DNA of 64,000 nucleotides. Origin: an uncultured Flavobacteriales bacterium (GTDB lineage: Bacteria; Bacteroidota; Bacteroidia; Flavobacteriales_G; Salibacteraceae). Location of the stretch: contig CAKZKD010000005.1 of assembly GCA_937121175.1 (NCBI GenBank), positions 62,001 through 126,000 on the forward strand, in the 5' to 3' direction. Both the position numbers and the translations under genes were made by a program. Shown here one piece after another: positions 5,897-41,462 of the stretch; the first letter of the stretch is position 1, and every line of letters starts with the position of its first letter. A model generated the notes under the pieces. The model did not search any database and had not been told where the DNA came from. It saw nothing but the letters and a program-made list of their open reading frames with translations.

Positions 5897-6069
5897 ATGC
5901 ATAATTTCAATAGAACATTTGAAACTTAATGAAGGTTAATTGAAGTCGTCAATACGGAACAACTTTTATAATCGAGAACAATTTAAAAGTCACGAATTCA
6001 AATAGTTAAACCCAAGAACAAGAATGGTATAACTCTAATTTAGAATCATTCTAAATAATGTTATTACTC

Positions 6070-36280: not shown

Positions 36281-37714
36281 CTAAGAATCGAACTCATCTT
36301 TTACGTTTAGCTCACCTTCTCCTTTTGCAATAATTGTACTTACAGCAGCATCTCCAGTTACGTTAACCACCGTTCGGCACATGTCTAATATTCTATCTAC
36401 AGGAAAAATAATAGCTATCCAAGCTGGGTTTAGTCCAACGGAAATAAGCACTATCATGAGCATAACTAAACCAGCACTTGGCACCGCAGCAGAGCCAATC
36501 GAAGCCAAAGTAGCAGTGAGTACAATTGTTAGTTGTTGGGCTAAGGTCAAATCCACCATGTGTAATTGAGCCAAAAACAAAACAGCAATGGTCTGGTACA
36601 TACTAGTGCCATCCATATTCACGGTTGCACCAATTGGTAAAACAAAACTCGATACGTTTTTGGATACTCCAATATTATCTTCCACGCATTCCATAGTTAC
36701 TGGCAAAGTAGCCGCACTGGAACTGGTAGAAAAGGCTAAAAATTGCGCCGGGCTTATTTTTCTAAAAAAGGATGTGTACCCAATTTTAGCAACGAATTTT
36801 ACGATTAATGGATAGAAGATGGCCACCATAAATGCTAAGCCAACGAATACGGCAACACTGTAGGTTCCTAAACTTTTAAATATTTCGAAAACTTCGCCCG
36901 GTGTGTTTGCCATTTTAGCAATTACTCCAGCCATAAGCGCGAAAACAAAAAATGGAGCGGCTCTCATAATAATATCAACCATTTTCAAGAAAACCTCAGA
37001 CATACCATCGAAAAATGAAATAATGGGACTCGCTTTTTCCGATGGAATAAGTATAAGCGTAATCCCAAGAAAAATGGCAAAGAATATTACTTGAAGCATT
37101 AGTTTATTGTCAGAAATGGAAAGCACAATATTCTCAGGAACCATATCAACTAAAAAATGCAATGGTCCTTTAGTTTGATTTTTCTCTACAACTTTTAATT
37201 TTTCCTCAATGGTTTTGCGGTCCTTGGCACTTAATTCCTCACCGTGTTTCTGTTCAACTTCTGCAATTATAGTTGCGTATTTTTCATCTGCTGAATAATA
37301 TTTACCATCTAAAATTTTTACACCCGATGAGTTCGCCCAATACTCATAGTTAATTCTGTTTTTTATACGTTGTTCTTCATCAATAAAAGTACCTGGCTTT
37401 ACAACGTTACCAATCAACAACCCAATGCTTACAGCGCAAACAGTAGTAACCAAATACACTAGAAGTGTTTTGCCTCCCATTCTACCCAACTTGCTTACAT
37501 CATTTAATCCAGCTATACCAGTAACTACAGAAAATAGTACTAGTGGTACCGCAATAAACTTTAATAATCGTATGAATATTTGACCAAATGGGTCAATCCA
37601 ATCTATCGTGAATTGGTTCCAACCCATAGCACTGGAAATAAAAGACCAAACGGCTCCGCATAGTAAGCCAATCAAAATCTTTACGTATAGAGGCAAACCT
37701 TTCATTCTATTCAA
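36281..37714 (-). CDS. Dicarboxylate/amino acid:cation symporter (DAACS, GltP/DctA type)
   Basis: Inner-membrane sodium- or proton-coupled carrier of 477 residues for glutamate, aspartate or C4-dicarboxylates. Family hallmarks: hairpin 1 with the serine-rich tip FSTSSSAATLPVT, TM7 NMDGTSMY (the NMDGT Na+/substrate motif), and hairpin 2 with ASIGSAAVPSAGLVM. TM8 has FPVDRILDMCRTVVNVTGDA; the R in RTVVN sits where aspartate/dicarboxylate transporters carry it. A hydrophilic insertion of about 70 residues lies between the third and fourth helices. The first 8 bases overlap the end of aroC, so the two genes are translationally coupled. Confidence 0.92.
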   Translation of the reverse strand: MNRMKGLPLYVKILIGLLCGAVWSFISSAMGWNQFTIDWIDPFGQIFIRLLKFIAVPLVLFSVVTGIAGLNDVSKLGRMGGKTLLVYLVTTVCAVSIGLLIGNVVKPGTFIDEEQRIKNRINYEYWANSSGVKILDGKYYSADEKYATIIAEVEQKHGEELSAKDRKTIEEKLKVVEKNQTKGPLHFLVDMVPENIVLSISDNKLMLQVIFFAIFLGITLILIPSEKASPIISFFDGMSEVFLKMVDIIMRAAPFFVFALMAGVIAKMANTPGEVFEIFKSLGTYSVAVFVGLAFMVAIFYPLIVKFVAKIGYTSFFRKISPAQFLAFSTSSSAATLPVTMECVEDNIGVSKNVSSFVLPIGATVNMDGTSMYQTIAVLFLAQLHMVDLTLAQQLTIVLTATLASIGSAAVPSAGLVMLMIVLISVGLNPAWIAIIFPVDRILDMCRTVVNVTGDAAVSTIIAKGEGELNVKDEFDS

Positions 37715-38789
37715 TTTTATCTGTTCGTTTTAATAATAAGTGGTCGGCTAAAACCATGGCACATATTGCCTTTACTACAGGTACCGCTCTTGGCACTACG
37801 CAAGGGTCATGTCTTCCTTCAACTTCAATATCAACTTGCTCATTCGAAGTAGAAACCGTGAATTGCTTTTGACTGATGGTTGCGGGCGGTTTAAAAGAAA
37901 TGGTTATTAAAATATCTTGCCCATTAGAAATTCCGCCTTGCACTCCGCCAGAATTATTCGAAGAGGTTTTCACCTTACCGTTTTCAATCGTAAATGCATC
38001 ATTTTGCTCCGAACCTTTTAGTTCAGTTGTTGATTTACCAATTCCAATTTCAACAGATTTCACTGCATTTATTGAGAATAAGGCGTGACTCAAATCGGCG
38101 GAAAGCTTGTTAAAAATAGGTCTTCCTAAACCAACCACATCATTTTTAATGACTACCGAAACAGCTCCACCAATGCTATCGCCCTGCTTTTTTGTTTCCT
38201 CAATTAAGGCAATCATTTTAGTTGATACAGATTGATTTGGGCATCGAACAATTGAAACATCAACTTCTGCATCCGTAAAAAATGAATCGGATTCCAGCAT
38301 TTCTATGCTTCCCACTTTTGAGACATAGCAGGAAATGTCTATTTCTACGGTATTGATGATTTTCTGAGCGACCGCTCCACCGACAACCCAATTAGCCGTT
38401 TCTCTTGCTGATGACCTGCCTCCTCCTCGATAATCTCGAATTCCATATTTGGATTCGTAAGTAAAATCTGCATGAGAAGGGCGATAAACATCTTTGATTG
38501 CTGAATAATCTTTTGAGCGTTGGTCTTTATTTGGAATAATAAATCCTATTGAAGTTCCTGTGGTTTTCCCTTCAAAAGTTCCAGAAAGTAACTGGACTAT
38601 ATCTGACTCTTTTCGTTCTGTGGTTACTGAGGATTGACCTGGTTTTCGACGGTCTAAATCTTGTTGAATATCGACCTCTGTTAATTCAATGCCGGCCGGA
38701 CATCCGTCAATGATTCCACCGATTGCTTTTCCGTGTGATTCTCCAAACGTGGTTAATCGATAAATTTTACCCAAAGAATTACTCGACAT
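37707..38789 (-). CDS. aroC: Chorismate synthase
   Basis: Last step of the shikimate pathway: 5-enolpyruvylshikimate 3-phosphate to chorismate, using reduced FMN. The 360-residue product has all three family signatures: GESHGKAIGGIIDGCPAG near the start, the basic segment DYRGGGRSSARETANWVVGGAVA, and RHDPCVVPRAVPVVKAI near the end. A perfect -7 box ends only 4 bases upstream of the ATG, implying a leaderless message. It overlaps the downstream symporter gene by 8 bases, an unexpected functional pairing. Confidence 0.97.
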   Translation of the reverse strand: MSSNSLGKIYRLTTFGESHGKAIGGIIDGCPAGIELTEVDIQQDLDRRKPGQSSVTTERKESDIVQLLSGTFEGKTTGTSIGFIIPNKDQRSKDYSAIKDVYRPSHADFTYESKYGIRDYRGGGRSSARETANWVVGGAVAQKIINTVEIDISCYVSKVGSIEMLESDSFFTDAEVDVSIVRCPNQSVSTKMIALIEETKKQGDSIGGAVSVVIKNDVVGLGRPIFNKLSADLSHALFSINAVKSVEIGIGKSTTELKGSEQNDAFTIENGKVKTSSNNSGGVQGGISNGQDILITISFKPPATISQKQFTVSTSNEQVDIEVEGRHDPCVVPRAVPVVKAICAMVLADHLLLKRTDKIE

Positions 38790-38793
38790 ACCG

Positions 38794-38801
38794 CAAATGT
38801 A
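38794..38801 (-). promoter_or_regulatory. -7 promoter box of aroC, abutting the start codon
   Basis: TACATTTG on the minus strand, exact TAnnTTTG match, only 4 bases before the aroC ATG. Transcription would start at or next to the A of the start codon. Confidence 0.5.
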
Positions 38802-38861
38802 TTCAATATCAATTCTTAAAACACCCCAACGCAGCCTTTAAAACTAGCGTTTAGTTGAGTA

Positions 38862-39677
38862 ATGATGTATCCTAAAATAGATTTGGCTGTACTGGAAAGT
38901 GTCCTAAAAACAATATTGTTTTTTGACGCGTTCGGAAAAAGCGTTTCAAAGGCTAATATTGACCAATACTTAATTGAACAACAATCGAATATTGAATCCA
39001 TCGAAATTAGCCTTGCTGTGCTCGAAGATTTAGAAATCATAAAAAAAGAGGATGACCGATATTCTCTATTTGCGCGCAATAACTCTGAAATAAAAATCCA
39101 ATCAGAATCCAGACGAATTAGTCTTAGAAATAAATTTTTGTTCAAAGTAATCGGCTCTTTAGAAACAATTAGAGGCGTTTATTCATTCACTAACTTAAAT
39201 GATATCGAGACTATCGTTCTTGACTTATCAGGTTTAAACAAACCTAATCTTGCGAATAAAATATGTAATTGGACATCTAAAATCACCTCTAAAAAAGTCG
39301 TGTATGTTTCTCGATTTTATAAACCAGACAGCACAAACATTTTTCAGTCTTTTGCTCTTGCCAAACTGTCTCCAATAATTAATCCTGTTGCACTAGAAAA
39401 ACTGATTAATAGAGATAACGAAAACTATAAGATATTCCCTAACCGAGTGGTGAATCACAATGGAGTGCTGAAACCATTGAGACCAAAATCAATGGCTATG
39501 GTTCGCAAGCCTGTATTTAATGTGAATCCGGTTTCTGATTGCGAGTTTTTTGAAGTCGTACAGGAAACTATAAATGCCAAGGACTTATTAGCAAATTGGG
39601 ATAAAAACCAAATCCTATACAAACAGTGGTTTCAACCGCGTTTATCGAAATTGAACAGAAAGTATCAACTCGTTTAA
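38862..39677 (+). CDS. Unknown protein: winged helix plus a degenerate nucleotidyltransferase-like region
   Basis: No firm family. The 271-residue soluble protein begins with a probable winged-helix domain (about residues 8-75): ILFFDAFGKSVSKANIDQYL, then LAVLEDLEIIKKEDDRYSLF. This pattern is typical of the N terminus of a bacterial family that joins a winged helix to a minimal nucleotidyltransferase. The later segment FQSFALAKLSPIINPVALEKL, followed by NYKIFPN, also resembles the end of that family's catalytic domain (A-ELA-PL, then a conserved N). The GS-x-DxD catalytic motif is absent: after VIGSLETIRGVYSFTNLND there are no paired aspartates. Homology is inferred by eye. It stands alone, divergent from aroC and upstream of porQ. 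ATG is doubled (MM), so the start is uncertain by one codon. Confidence 0.55.
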   Translation: MMYPKIDLAVLESVLKTILFFDAFGKSVSKANIDQYLIEQQSNIESIEISLAVLEDLEIIKKEDDRYSLFARNNSEIKIQSESRRISLRNKFLFKVIGSLETIRGVYSFTNLNDIETIVLDLSGLNKPNLANKICNWTSKITSKKVVYVSRFYKPDSTNIFQSFALAKLSPIINPVALEKLINRDNENYKIFPNRVVNHNGVLKPLRPKSMAMVRKPVFNVNPVSDCEFFEVVQETINAKDLLANWDKNQILYKQWFQPRLSKLNRKYQLV

Positions 39678-39706
39678 ATAATTACCTCATCTGAAAACGA
39701 AAACAA

Positions 39707-39714
39707 TAATTTTG
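39707..39714 (+). promoter_or_regulatory. -7 promoter box of porQ-cmk
   Basis: TAATTTTG, exact TAnnTTTG match, 21 bases before the GTG start I assign to porQ. It overlaps an in-frame TTG that would otherwise give a longer N terminus, so that TTG is unlikely to be translated. Confidence 0.5.
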
Positions 39715-39735
39715 ACGGTCAAGCGTATTTGTGCC

Positions 39736-40767
39736 GTGAAACTATTTAGCACCCTTCTTTTTGCATTCCTCTCCACCTTGGCTTTTGGCCAATTAGGCGG
39801 ACAACGCAGCTTTTCGTTTCTTGAAATTCCAACTTCCGCAAGATCTGCAGCCATGGGAGGCAGTTCTGCAGGAATAAAAGACAATGACATCAATATTATA
39901 AACGATAATCCAGCCAATTTAGATACTTCACTAGACAACCATTTGAGTATTAATTACGTGAATTTTGTTAGTGATATCAATGCTGGAAACATTGCCTACG
40001 CAAAACAAATTGGTGCTGGAACAATGGGCATTACCGCTCAATTTTTAGGCTACGGAAGCTTTGAAGTCGTTGAGGCTAATGGTGTAAAAACAGGAGAGCA
40101 GTTTAATGCAGGTGATTTCGCTCTTAATCTAGCCTACGGTCGAGCTATTGATTCTCAATTTAGTGTAGGAGGAACATTCAAGACGGTTTACTCAAATTAT
40201 TACTATACTCAATCGGTTGCTTTTGGGGTTGATATCGGTGCTGCCTTCAGCAGTAAGTCTAGAAACTTTACGAGTACATTGGCAGTTAGAAATTTGGGTA
40301 GAGCACTTACCAAAAATGATGCTGGAACAAGAAATAAACTTCCAACGAATTTTGAACTTGGAGCAGCTATTAAAGTTCCTAAAGCGCCTTTTCGGTTTTT
40401 TGGTCAATACAATAATTTACAGCGATGGGATTTAGGTTCGAATGACCCGAATTATGCTGGCAAGGAAAAAACCGACCCAAAAACAGGGCTAGTTACACAA
40501 CGAAAATTTAGTTCAGACAATCTATTTCGTCATTTGGTGCTTGGAACTGATATCGTAGCATCGGATAACTTTTGGGTAACAGTTTCTTATAATTTCAGAA
40601 GAAGGAAAGAACTTGCTGCGGTTTCGAGAGGTGGGTTAAGCGGAATTTCTTTTGGGGCAATGATTAAGATTAAAAAATTACAATTCAACTATTCTTTGAG
40701 TAGTTACCATACTGCTGGTGTTGCGCACCACATTGGCATTACCACTAACTTGAACGAACTTTTCTAA
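39736..40767 (+). CDS. porQ: Type IX secretion system protein PorQ
   Basis: Outer-membrane beta-barrel protein of 343 residues (UPF0164/PorV-like fold) needed for the attachment or sorting of T9SS cargo. The GTG start gives the signal peptide MKLFSTLLFAFLSTLAFGQ. The mature protein begins with GGQRSFSFLEIPTSARSAAMGG, the PorQ/PorV signature, followed by DNDINIINDNPANLD and alternating amphipathic strands to the C terminus. porQ followed directly by cmk (2-base gap) is a recurrent pair in Bacteroidota. It fits the three T9SS cargo genes in this window. Confidence 0.92.
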   Translation: MKLFSTLLFAFLSTLAFGQLGGQRSFSFLEIPTSARSAAMGGSSAGIKDNDINIINDNPANLDTSLDNHLSINYVNFVSDINAGNIAYAKQIGAGTMGITAQFLGYGSFEVVEANGVKTGEQFNAGDFALNLAYGRAIDSQFSVGGTFKTVYSNYYYTQSVAFGVDIGAAFSSKSRNFTSTLAVRNLGRALTKNDAGTRNKLPTNFELGAAIKVPKAPFRFFGQYNNLQRWDLGSNDPNYAGKEKTDPKTGLVTQRKFSSDNLFRHLVLGTDIVASDNFWVTVSYNFRRRKELAAVSRGGLSGISFGAMIKIKKLQFNYSLSSYHTAGVAHHIGITTNLNELF

Positions 40768-40769
40768 CA

Positions 40770-41462
40770 ATGAGCTCAAGAATCAATATTGCTATTGACG
40801 GATACTCTTCTTGCGGAAAAAGCACTTTAGCCAGAGAACTTGCAAAGGAATTGGACTACGTTTTTATTGATACTGGTGCAATGTACAGAGCTATTACGCT
40901 GTATGCGTTGCAGCATAATTTGACTAAACCAGAATTAAACTCCAAGAAGCTTATTGAATGCCTACCTGAAATCGAAGTTTCGTTTGAATACAACAAAACC
41001 AGAGGTGCTTCCGACGTTTTGCTCAATGGTAAAAACGTGGAAAAAGAAATTCGCCAAATGGAAGTTTCGAATAATGTTAGCCCGGTTGCTGCAGTTAAAG
41101 AAGTTCGAAAAAAGCTAGTTGAACTGCAGCAAAAAATGGGAGAACAAAAAGGCGTGGTAATGGACGGAAGAGATATTGGCACTGTGGTTTTTCCTGATGC
41201 CGAGCTTAAGATATTCATGACTGCAAGCGACGAAATTCGTGCTCAAAGACGATTCAATGAACTAAAAGAAAAAGGCAATAACATTACACTTGTCGAGGTT
41301 CAAAAAAACCTAAAAGAACGTGACCATATTGATACCACTAGAGTTGAAGACCCATTGCGGCAAGCTGAAGACGCTCGTGTGATTGATAATTCTGATTTGA
41401 CCCGAGAAAACCAGTTTGAACTGGCATTATCTTGGGTTGAAGAGGTAAAGGCTTTAGCCTAA
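40770..41462 (+). CDS. cmk: Cytidylate kinase
   Basis: Phosphorylates CMP and dCMP to the diphosphates in the cytoplasm. The 230 residues start with the P-loop GYSSCGKSTLAREL, followed by DTGAMYRAITLYAL (nucleotide-binding), VVMDGRDIGTVVFPDAELKIFMTAS, and the lid segment RDHIDTTRVEDPLRQAEDA. It starts 2 bases after porQ and shares its promoter. Its last 9 bases overlap the 3' end of the convergent ftsY gene. Confidence 0.96.
   Translation: MSSRINIAIDGYSSCGKSTLARELAKELDYVFIDTGAMYRAITLYALQHNLTKPELNSKKLIECLPEIEVSFEYNKTRGASDVLLNGKNVEKEIRQMEVSNNVSPVAAVKEVRKKLVELQQKMGEQKGVVMDGRDIGTVVFPDAELKIFMTASDEIRAQRRFNELKEKGNNITLVEVQKNLKERDHIDTTRVEDPLRQAEDARVIDNSDLTRENQFELALSWVEEVKALA

Follow-up and report, generated by a model that had tools for sequence, protein, structure and literature searches.

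In the window, by which we mean the whole analysed stretch of 64,000 nucleotides, an intact ORF with an ATG start encodes a protein of 271 aa (hereafter the window protein) that lies between aroC, on the opposite strand, and porQ and cmk (Table 1). This placement had been read from the letters in an earlier note on the DNA and was borne out, the gene names being backed by NCBIfam models. The porQ start at 39712 is a mechanical TTG, and the actual start codon may lie inside this ORF. A further neighbour of the aroC-linked gene is an SDF symporter gene, and no HEPN gene adjoins the ORF, whose neighbours are aroC, porQ, cmk and the symporter.

Table 1. Features at the aroC-linked locus, in window positions; residues are those of the window protein.
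Feature	Coordinates	Strand	Basis
aroC-linked predicted pseudo-nucleotidyltransferase gene, 271 aa	38862..39677	+	ORF, orthologues, homology to motif-bearing family
N-terminal winged-helix region, residues about 6-72	38877..39077	+	HMM domain match, both models, PDB winged helices
NTase-like core without GSxSK loop, residues about 85-189	39114..39428	+	core-only profile-profile, MNT chains over residues 82-211
Place of former catalytic loop, shortened, residues 108-123	39183..39230	+	D114-I115-E116 at DxD columns in window copy
Counterpart of the NIFTATEL-TLIPVYN block in motif-bearing members, residues 157-177	39330..39392	+	profile alignments
Own C-terminal region, residues 226-271	39537..39674	+	Q255, W256, V271 invariant across all six proteins
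72-bp divergent intergenic region to aroC	38790..38861	.	box-like sequence and imperfect palindrome
aroC, chorismate synthase, divergent neighbour	37707..38789	-	NCBIfam
porQ, type IX secretion protein, downstream neighbour	39712..40767	+	NCBIfam
cmk, (d)CMP kinase	40770..41462	+	NCBIfam

No Pfam or NCBIfam model gave a convincing match to the window protein, so its annotation as hypothetical is probable, and PF01909 (NTP_transf_2) was not among its matches at E 10. No convincing match was obtained among PDB sequences either. The matches to ATG101 (E 0.1), a phage replisome organiser (E 0.017) and adhesins (E 0.48) in the family and PDB searches were at chance level and were rejected. In a single-sequence search of its own genome (E 10) the protein matched only itself, and neither a pattern-based search of viral contigs nor a plasmid search gave a relative. 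A single-sequence search of 35 genomes of the same taxonomic family, on the other hand, gave matches in 7. Full-length orthologues with 42-44% identity were present in all three other genomes of the genus examined, and one orthologue each was found in two further genera, g11 and g7; the aroC-linked gene occurs in 6/35 genomes of the taxonomic family, from three genera, and is divergent from aroC in every carrier. The seventh match (L007) is a distinct 306-aa protein that contains GSLSKGYMGDDADID. When it was used as the query in the window's own genome, a motif-bearing paralogue on contig C12 came first (E 2.3e-80, 46% identity) and the window gene second (E 1.2e-4).

The neighbours of the aroC-linked gene are aroC and porQ, or aroC and an M23 gene. 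aroC was found in 30 genomes, and porQ lies within the 1.5-kb flanks in five carriers only; in the sixth (g7) it lies beyond the M23 gene. The order asmA-like, SDF symporter, aroC, aroC-linked gene, porQ, cmk, ftsY recurs, apart from some insertions, in the window, g11 and g7, asmA-like and ftsY being named by eye. In the gene tree the six aroC-linked genes form one clade (100/98) with long branches, and the end branches of g7 and g11 are flagged as long. The g7 orthologue entered this tree and alignment A2 from an internal ATG and is without its first helix there. The tree was built without L016 and L020, and with several first-set loci replaced by the same genes from the later search of the protein family; L094, which represents the gene of L016, was trimmed to the 310 C-terminal residues, and L102 is part of the L096 gene, in the frame of which a stop occurs. 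The carriers also form one clade (87/92) in an aroC tree of 24 rows, from which 5/29 rows (L054, L059, L062, L064, L071) were removed by a motif filter and the partial L072 was excluded. Both trees fit one origin followed by vertical descent.

The relatives outside this clade belong to an uncharacterised Bacteroidia family in which a winged helix precedes a minimal nucleotidyltransferase (NTase) with its motif intact, and which we call motif-bearing. It was detected in 29/197 genomes of the class at E 1e-10 and in 20/35 of the taxonomic family, three of which also carry the aroC-linked gene. The motif-bearing form is far wider, and therefore the aroC-linked form is taken as derived. When the profile of the six aroC-linked proteins was searched over 396 genomes of the class, with the best six candidates at most scored per genome, 21 genomes matched; under the same scoring, the 17 matches outside the window's taxonomic family have 300-362 aa, and all 17 carry GS or GG and DxD. 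Several of them matched via the C-terminal half only, for example over query residues 143-204 or 145-196. In the order-wide search (42 genomes), the other profile matches were likewise motif-bearing, except L019, which is the same gene as L098, and L020. The latter, found in a genome of the taxonomic family, is of a different type, looks by eye like a carboxypeptidase and was discarded as a chance match.

The earlier note had proposed, by eye, that the protein has the layout of a winged helix joined to a minimal nucleotidyltransferase, with a winged-helix-like pattern at the N-terminus and an A-LA-LSPIIN/N pattern towards the C-terminus; FFDAFGKSVSKANIDQYL, EDLEIIKKEDDRYSL and LAKLSPIIN are stretches present in the protein. 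This layout is supported by sequence profiles for both halves. An HMM domain match covers the winged helix (residues 12-78, 24.7 bits), and residues 1-80 score 27.0 bits on the NTase-family profile, against 6.6 bits at most for whole-protein shuffles among the 452 of 500 reported. Profile-profile comparison of the six aroC-linked with 15 motif-bearing proteins, all 15 of which reach E 0.1 or better with Pfam NTP_transf_2, gave a collinear match of 207 columns with E 1.1e-16 and a probability of 98.8; E was 9.3e-11 when the aroC-linked side was restricted to the four same-genus proteins. After removal of the winged helix, the core alone scored 64.1 (E 5.8e-9), while the best of 100 column shuffles reached 23.6 (lowest E 0.014) and the reversed core 12.5. 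The piece 81-150, which includes the motif region, gave E 9.5e-5. Columns 140-225 alone gave E 2.5e-7; here the C-terminal pattern aligns with the NIFTATEL-TLIPVYN block of the motif-bearing members. The core homology is carried by the profile-profile comparison, and single-sequence scoring does not show it for the window protein alone: of the 29.5 bits that it obtains on the family profile, the core alone accounts for 6.2, and shuffled cores reach 14.3 (among the 455 of 500 reported). Judged by profiles, both halves are homologous to the winged-helix and minimal NTase family.

The predicted structures were obtained with AlphaFold2 from four close sequences. The model of the window protein has a mean pLDDT of 53 and a pTM of 0.49, that of an orthologue 49 and 0.35, and because both models are weak the fold rests mainly on homology. 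In each of them, three helices and two strands are followed by helix, strand, strand, helix, strand and a helical part, an order of elements that is compatible with a winged helix and an NTase core. Structure prediction, which the earlier note had put forward as a check beside the profile search, gave models too weak to bear the argument, and MNT chains tie with unrelated domains. No Foldseek match passed E 0.001; the list includes the MNT chains 7aer, 6m6v and 5yep at E 0.14-0.18. In a second-look alignment of the window model, winged helices matched over residues 5-71 and MNT/NTase chains over residues 82-211. The alignments to 8xeh_E (Z 5.3, rmsd 3.7, 85 aligned) and 8xeo_A (Z 5.3, rmsd 3.3, 83 aligned) are tied with unrelated rows, and 2rff (Z 5.0) stands among ferredoxin-like domains that score equally. 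Ribosomal-protein and CDF-transporter domains also score like the MNT chains, and we read these matches as a common alpha-beta arrangement. The orthologue model gave winged helices but no MNT chain among the 50 matches listed, which is not evidence against the NTase fold. When the PDB was searched with a profile of the motif-bearing family, a single unrelated row came up.

A typical motif-bearing member has FPFVRGVYISGSLSKG, six residues, and then DIDYFIIT, and G-S or G-G with DxD is kept in 37 of the 39 proteins of this family that were examined. The G[SG]xx[RK] loop is absent from all six aroC-linked orthologues as entered; the stretch is shorter in five, and the g7 protein has its own residues there. 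At the DxD columns of the profile alignment, the window copy has D114-I115-E116 and the g7 orthologue E-E-D, so that two of the six proteins have acids at both columns; the other four have I-D-S (in two), M-D-K and A-T-P. An alternative alignment places D121 of the four same-genus proteins on the second Asp. Within the core, the six proteins share no invariant D or E, whereas D22 of the winged helix is invariant in a seven-row alignment. Moreover, 48 positions reach 90% identity or more across 37 motif-bearing proteins, and each of the six orthologues retains 8 to 12 of them. The GS-x-DxD motif that the earlier note had reported as missing is therefore gone as regards its loop, but the window copy is not acid-free at the DxD columns, even though its acids are not conserved. 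The description of the protein as a catalytically dead homologue agrees with these alignments, in which the loop is lost throughout and the acidic pair is not conserved. Neither of the findings that the note had set against its own reading turned up: the rest of the core showed no conserved DxD, and the fold did not prove unrelated to nucleotidyltransferases. Loss of catalysis is the best inference from the sequences and for the window copy a probable one; because this copy and g7 have acids at the DxD columns, residual or altered activity is possible.

The motif-bearing genes have a characteristic setting. In 34/39 loci of the family there is a B12-binding radical-SAM gene at 1.5 kb or less, and in 30/39 it lies directly downstream on the same strand, at a distance of 60 bp or less. 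At the paralogue in the window's own genome (G000:C12:114700-115611), the radical-SAM gene overlaps the end of the NTase gene by one base, which is its first (L073 8680-13230), and is followed by a methyltransferase gene and then by a second B12/radical-SAM gene. No such gene was found beside the aroC-linked genes. The five loci of the family without it are a fusion (L094) and four genes of genus g8, including both that have lost the motif. In the fusion (L094 1483-3150, G028; 556 aa), the winged-helix NTase stands behind a bacterial sugar transferase domain (PF02397). A TGA stop was observed inside the motif-bearing NTase gene of L096/L102 (G020:C17), the C-terminal piece of which was matched separately. 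The two exceptions to the motif among the 39 proteins, L098 (G019; GN, DLE) and L101 (G022; no GS, ELD), lie outside the aroC-linked clade and pair at 97/93 in the tree; since they belong to another clade, they are taken as a second decay.

Considering these data, it is probable that the aroC-linked gene encodes a pseudo-nucleotidyltransferase, which diverged from the winged-helix and NTase family and was kept as a predicted non-catalytic binding protein. An alternative is a decaying, functionless gene on its way to loss. The 42-44% identity between the window and the same-genus proteins, compared with 72% for aroC and 76-77% for porQ, could be taken in this sense, and so could the dN/dS of 0.42 (bootstrap 0.22-0.83) for the close pair, for which the neighbours gave 0.08 (aroC), 0.20 (porQ), 0.13 (cmk) and 0.05 (symporter). 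On the other hand, the ORF is open in all six genomes and three genera, residues of the C-terminal tail are invariant, and the deeper same-genus pairs gave dN/dS of 0.08 and 0.11 over 271 codons, with dS >2 and thus near saturation (the bootstrap ranges end at 0.18 and 0.20, with 144 and 170 of 200 replicates being usable). The gene is constrained, yet evolves faster than its neighbours, and decay is very improbable. Another reading is a regulatory subunit whose partner would be the motif-bearing paralogue in that genome. The two genes occur together in three of the six carriers (G000, G009, G027); in G000 and G027 they sit on separate contigs, and in G009 some 2 Mb from each other. In the three others (G032, G033 and G034, of the window's genus; completeness 98, 99 and 83%, G033 being 7% contaminated) no motif-bearing gene was found at E 0.001. 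As the aroC-linked gene is kept there, it is probably not a partner of that enzyme, and we give such pairing hardly more than a slight chance.

A more serious alternative is that the protein regulates transcription by means of its winged helix, acting on the divergent aroC promoter, on its own gene or on porQ-cmk; in it, the remnant of the NTase would be a ligand-sensing or dimerising part. The constant divergence from aroC speaks for it, as do the winged helices of MecI, BlaI and Fur among the matches of the orthologue model, BlaI also with the window model; protein-binding winged helices (cullin WHB, Rpa2), however, match the models at similar Z. The upstream DNA provides weak arguments for DNA binding. 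An imperfect palindrome upstream of the gene (38828-38851) has 15-nt arms that are 73% complementary according to the repeat search, and by eye paired-arm repeats were observed at a similar place, near 5970-6000, in the three same-genus loci, ACGC-T-GCGT in L040 and L041 and ACAC-T-GTGT in L042, in which both arms are changed together. The repeat search found no inverted repeat of at least 7 nt in L040, L041 and L005, and four-base arms easily arise by chance; the palindrome and the paired arms may be an operator or may be due to chance. The acidic third helix, with a net charge of -5 in four orthologues and -3 and 0 in the remaining two, argues weakly against DNA binding (it is acidic in 5/6). 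The core, by comparison, has a net charge of +4 to +9 in the six proteins. Since winged helices are likewise acidic and cores likewise basic in the wider family (averages -2.9 and +3.8), charge says little. As to promoters, TACATTTG on the - strand beside aroC fits the Bacteroidetes -7 box consensus. AAAACAATAATTTTG before porQ (window 39700-39714), which is common to the window, the three same-genus loci and g11, resembles the same box, and porQ may therefore have its own promoter. Overall, we regard a regulator of transcription as rather unlikely. A still active enzyme with a rebuilt site is less probable and quite doubtful: D114/E116 (or D121) would bind metal with other acids, and the shortened loop would handle a different substrate. 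It would account for the acids at the DxD columns of the window copy and g7 and for D121 in 4/6, but the other four have M/K, I/S, I/S and A/P at these two columns, and neither the GS loop nor any invariant acid of the core is left.

The pseudo-nucleotidyltransferase reading is thus the one that we follow. What lies beside aroC is a diverged relative of the family, in one clade, with the GS loop gone, the acidic pair not conserved and the gene under purifying selection. With its site predicted to be lost across the orthologues and its ORF constrained (dN/dS <1), it is, as far as sequences tell, a pseudoenzyme. Recruitment for binding or regulation, as the earlier note had suggested, is plausible. 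We hypothesize that the gene would have arisen by duplication of a motif-bearing gene and that the copy would have departed from the setting with the B12/radical-SAM gene. The basic NTase-like core, together with the family-specific C-terminal tail, may form a docking surface for a protein or ligand, and the mostly acidic winged helix may be a module for protein contact and not a reader of DNA. A bolder and unlikely proposal is that the B12/radical-SAM-tied enzyme family of Bacteroidia has yielded motif-less copies away from that gene at least twice (the aroC-linked clade and L098/L101), and that the aroC-linked one, kept where the enzyme was not found, would be a dedicated regulator coupling aromatic synthesis or type IX secretion to the enzyme's former ligand.

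The NTase fold is already known, and Kuchta and co-workers reportedly published a classification of such folds; the new element is the pseudoenzyme offshoot. In the open-licence PMC literature, searched by titles and abstract starts, nothing was found on the winged-helix/NTase family or on a link of NTases to B12/radical-SAM genes. The aroC-linked proteins share with the motif-bearing family the order of domains and the collinear profile match, including the NIFTATEL-TLIPVYN block, but differ from it in being without the GSxSK loop, the conserved DxD, the C-terminal SKHHP-FQ motif and the B12/radical-SAM neighbour. With the minimal nucleotidyltransferases of the HEPN-MNT (MntA-HepT) systems they have in common the NTase-like core, the weak model aligning to MNT chains in a tie with unrelated rows; unlike those, the aroC-linked protein is without the catalytic motif, has an added winged helix and is flanked by aroC and porQ. 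A further NTase-fold protein, MAB21L1, was crystallised in an inactive conformation (PMC4897736). It belongs to an animal cGAS-like family and would resemble the window protein in having an NTase fold with doubtful or no transfer activity.

The locus provides a defined case of a predicted NTase fold that is minus its catalytic loop and still under selection; the genome also has a paralogue, and the origin was apparently single. In practical terms the gain is small. The finding also draws attention to an uncharacterised enzyme family that neighbours B12/radical-SAM genes in many Bacteroidia, which is a lead for others, and natural copies that have lost the site are a useful contrast for this B12/radical-SAM-linked family.
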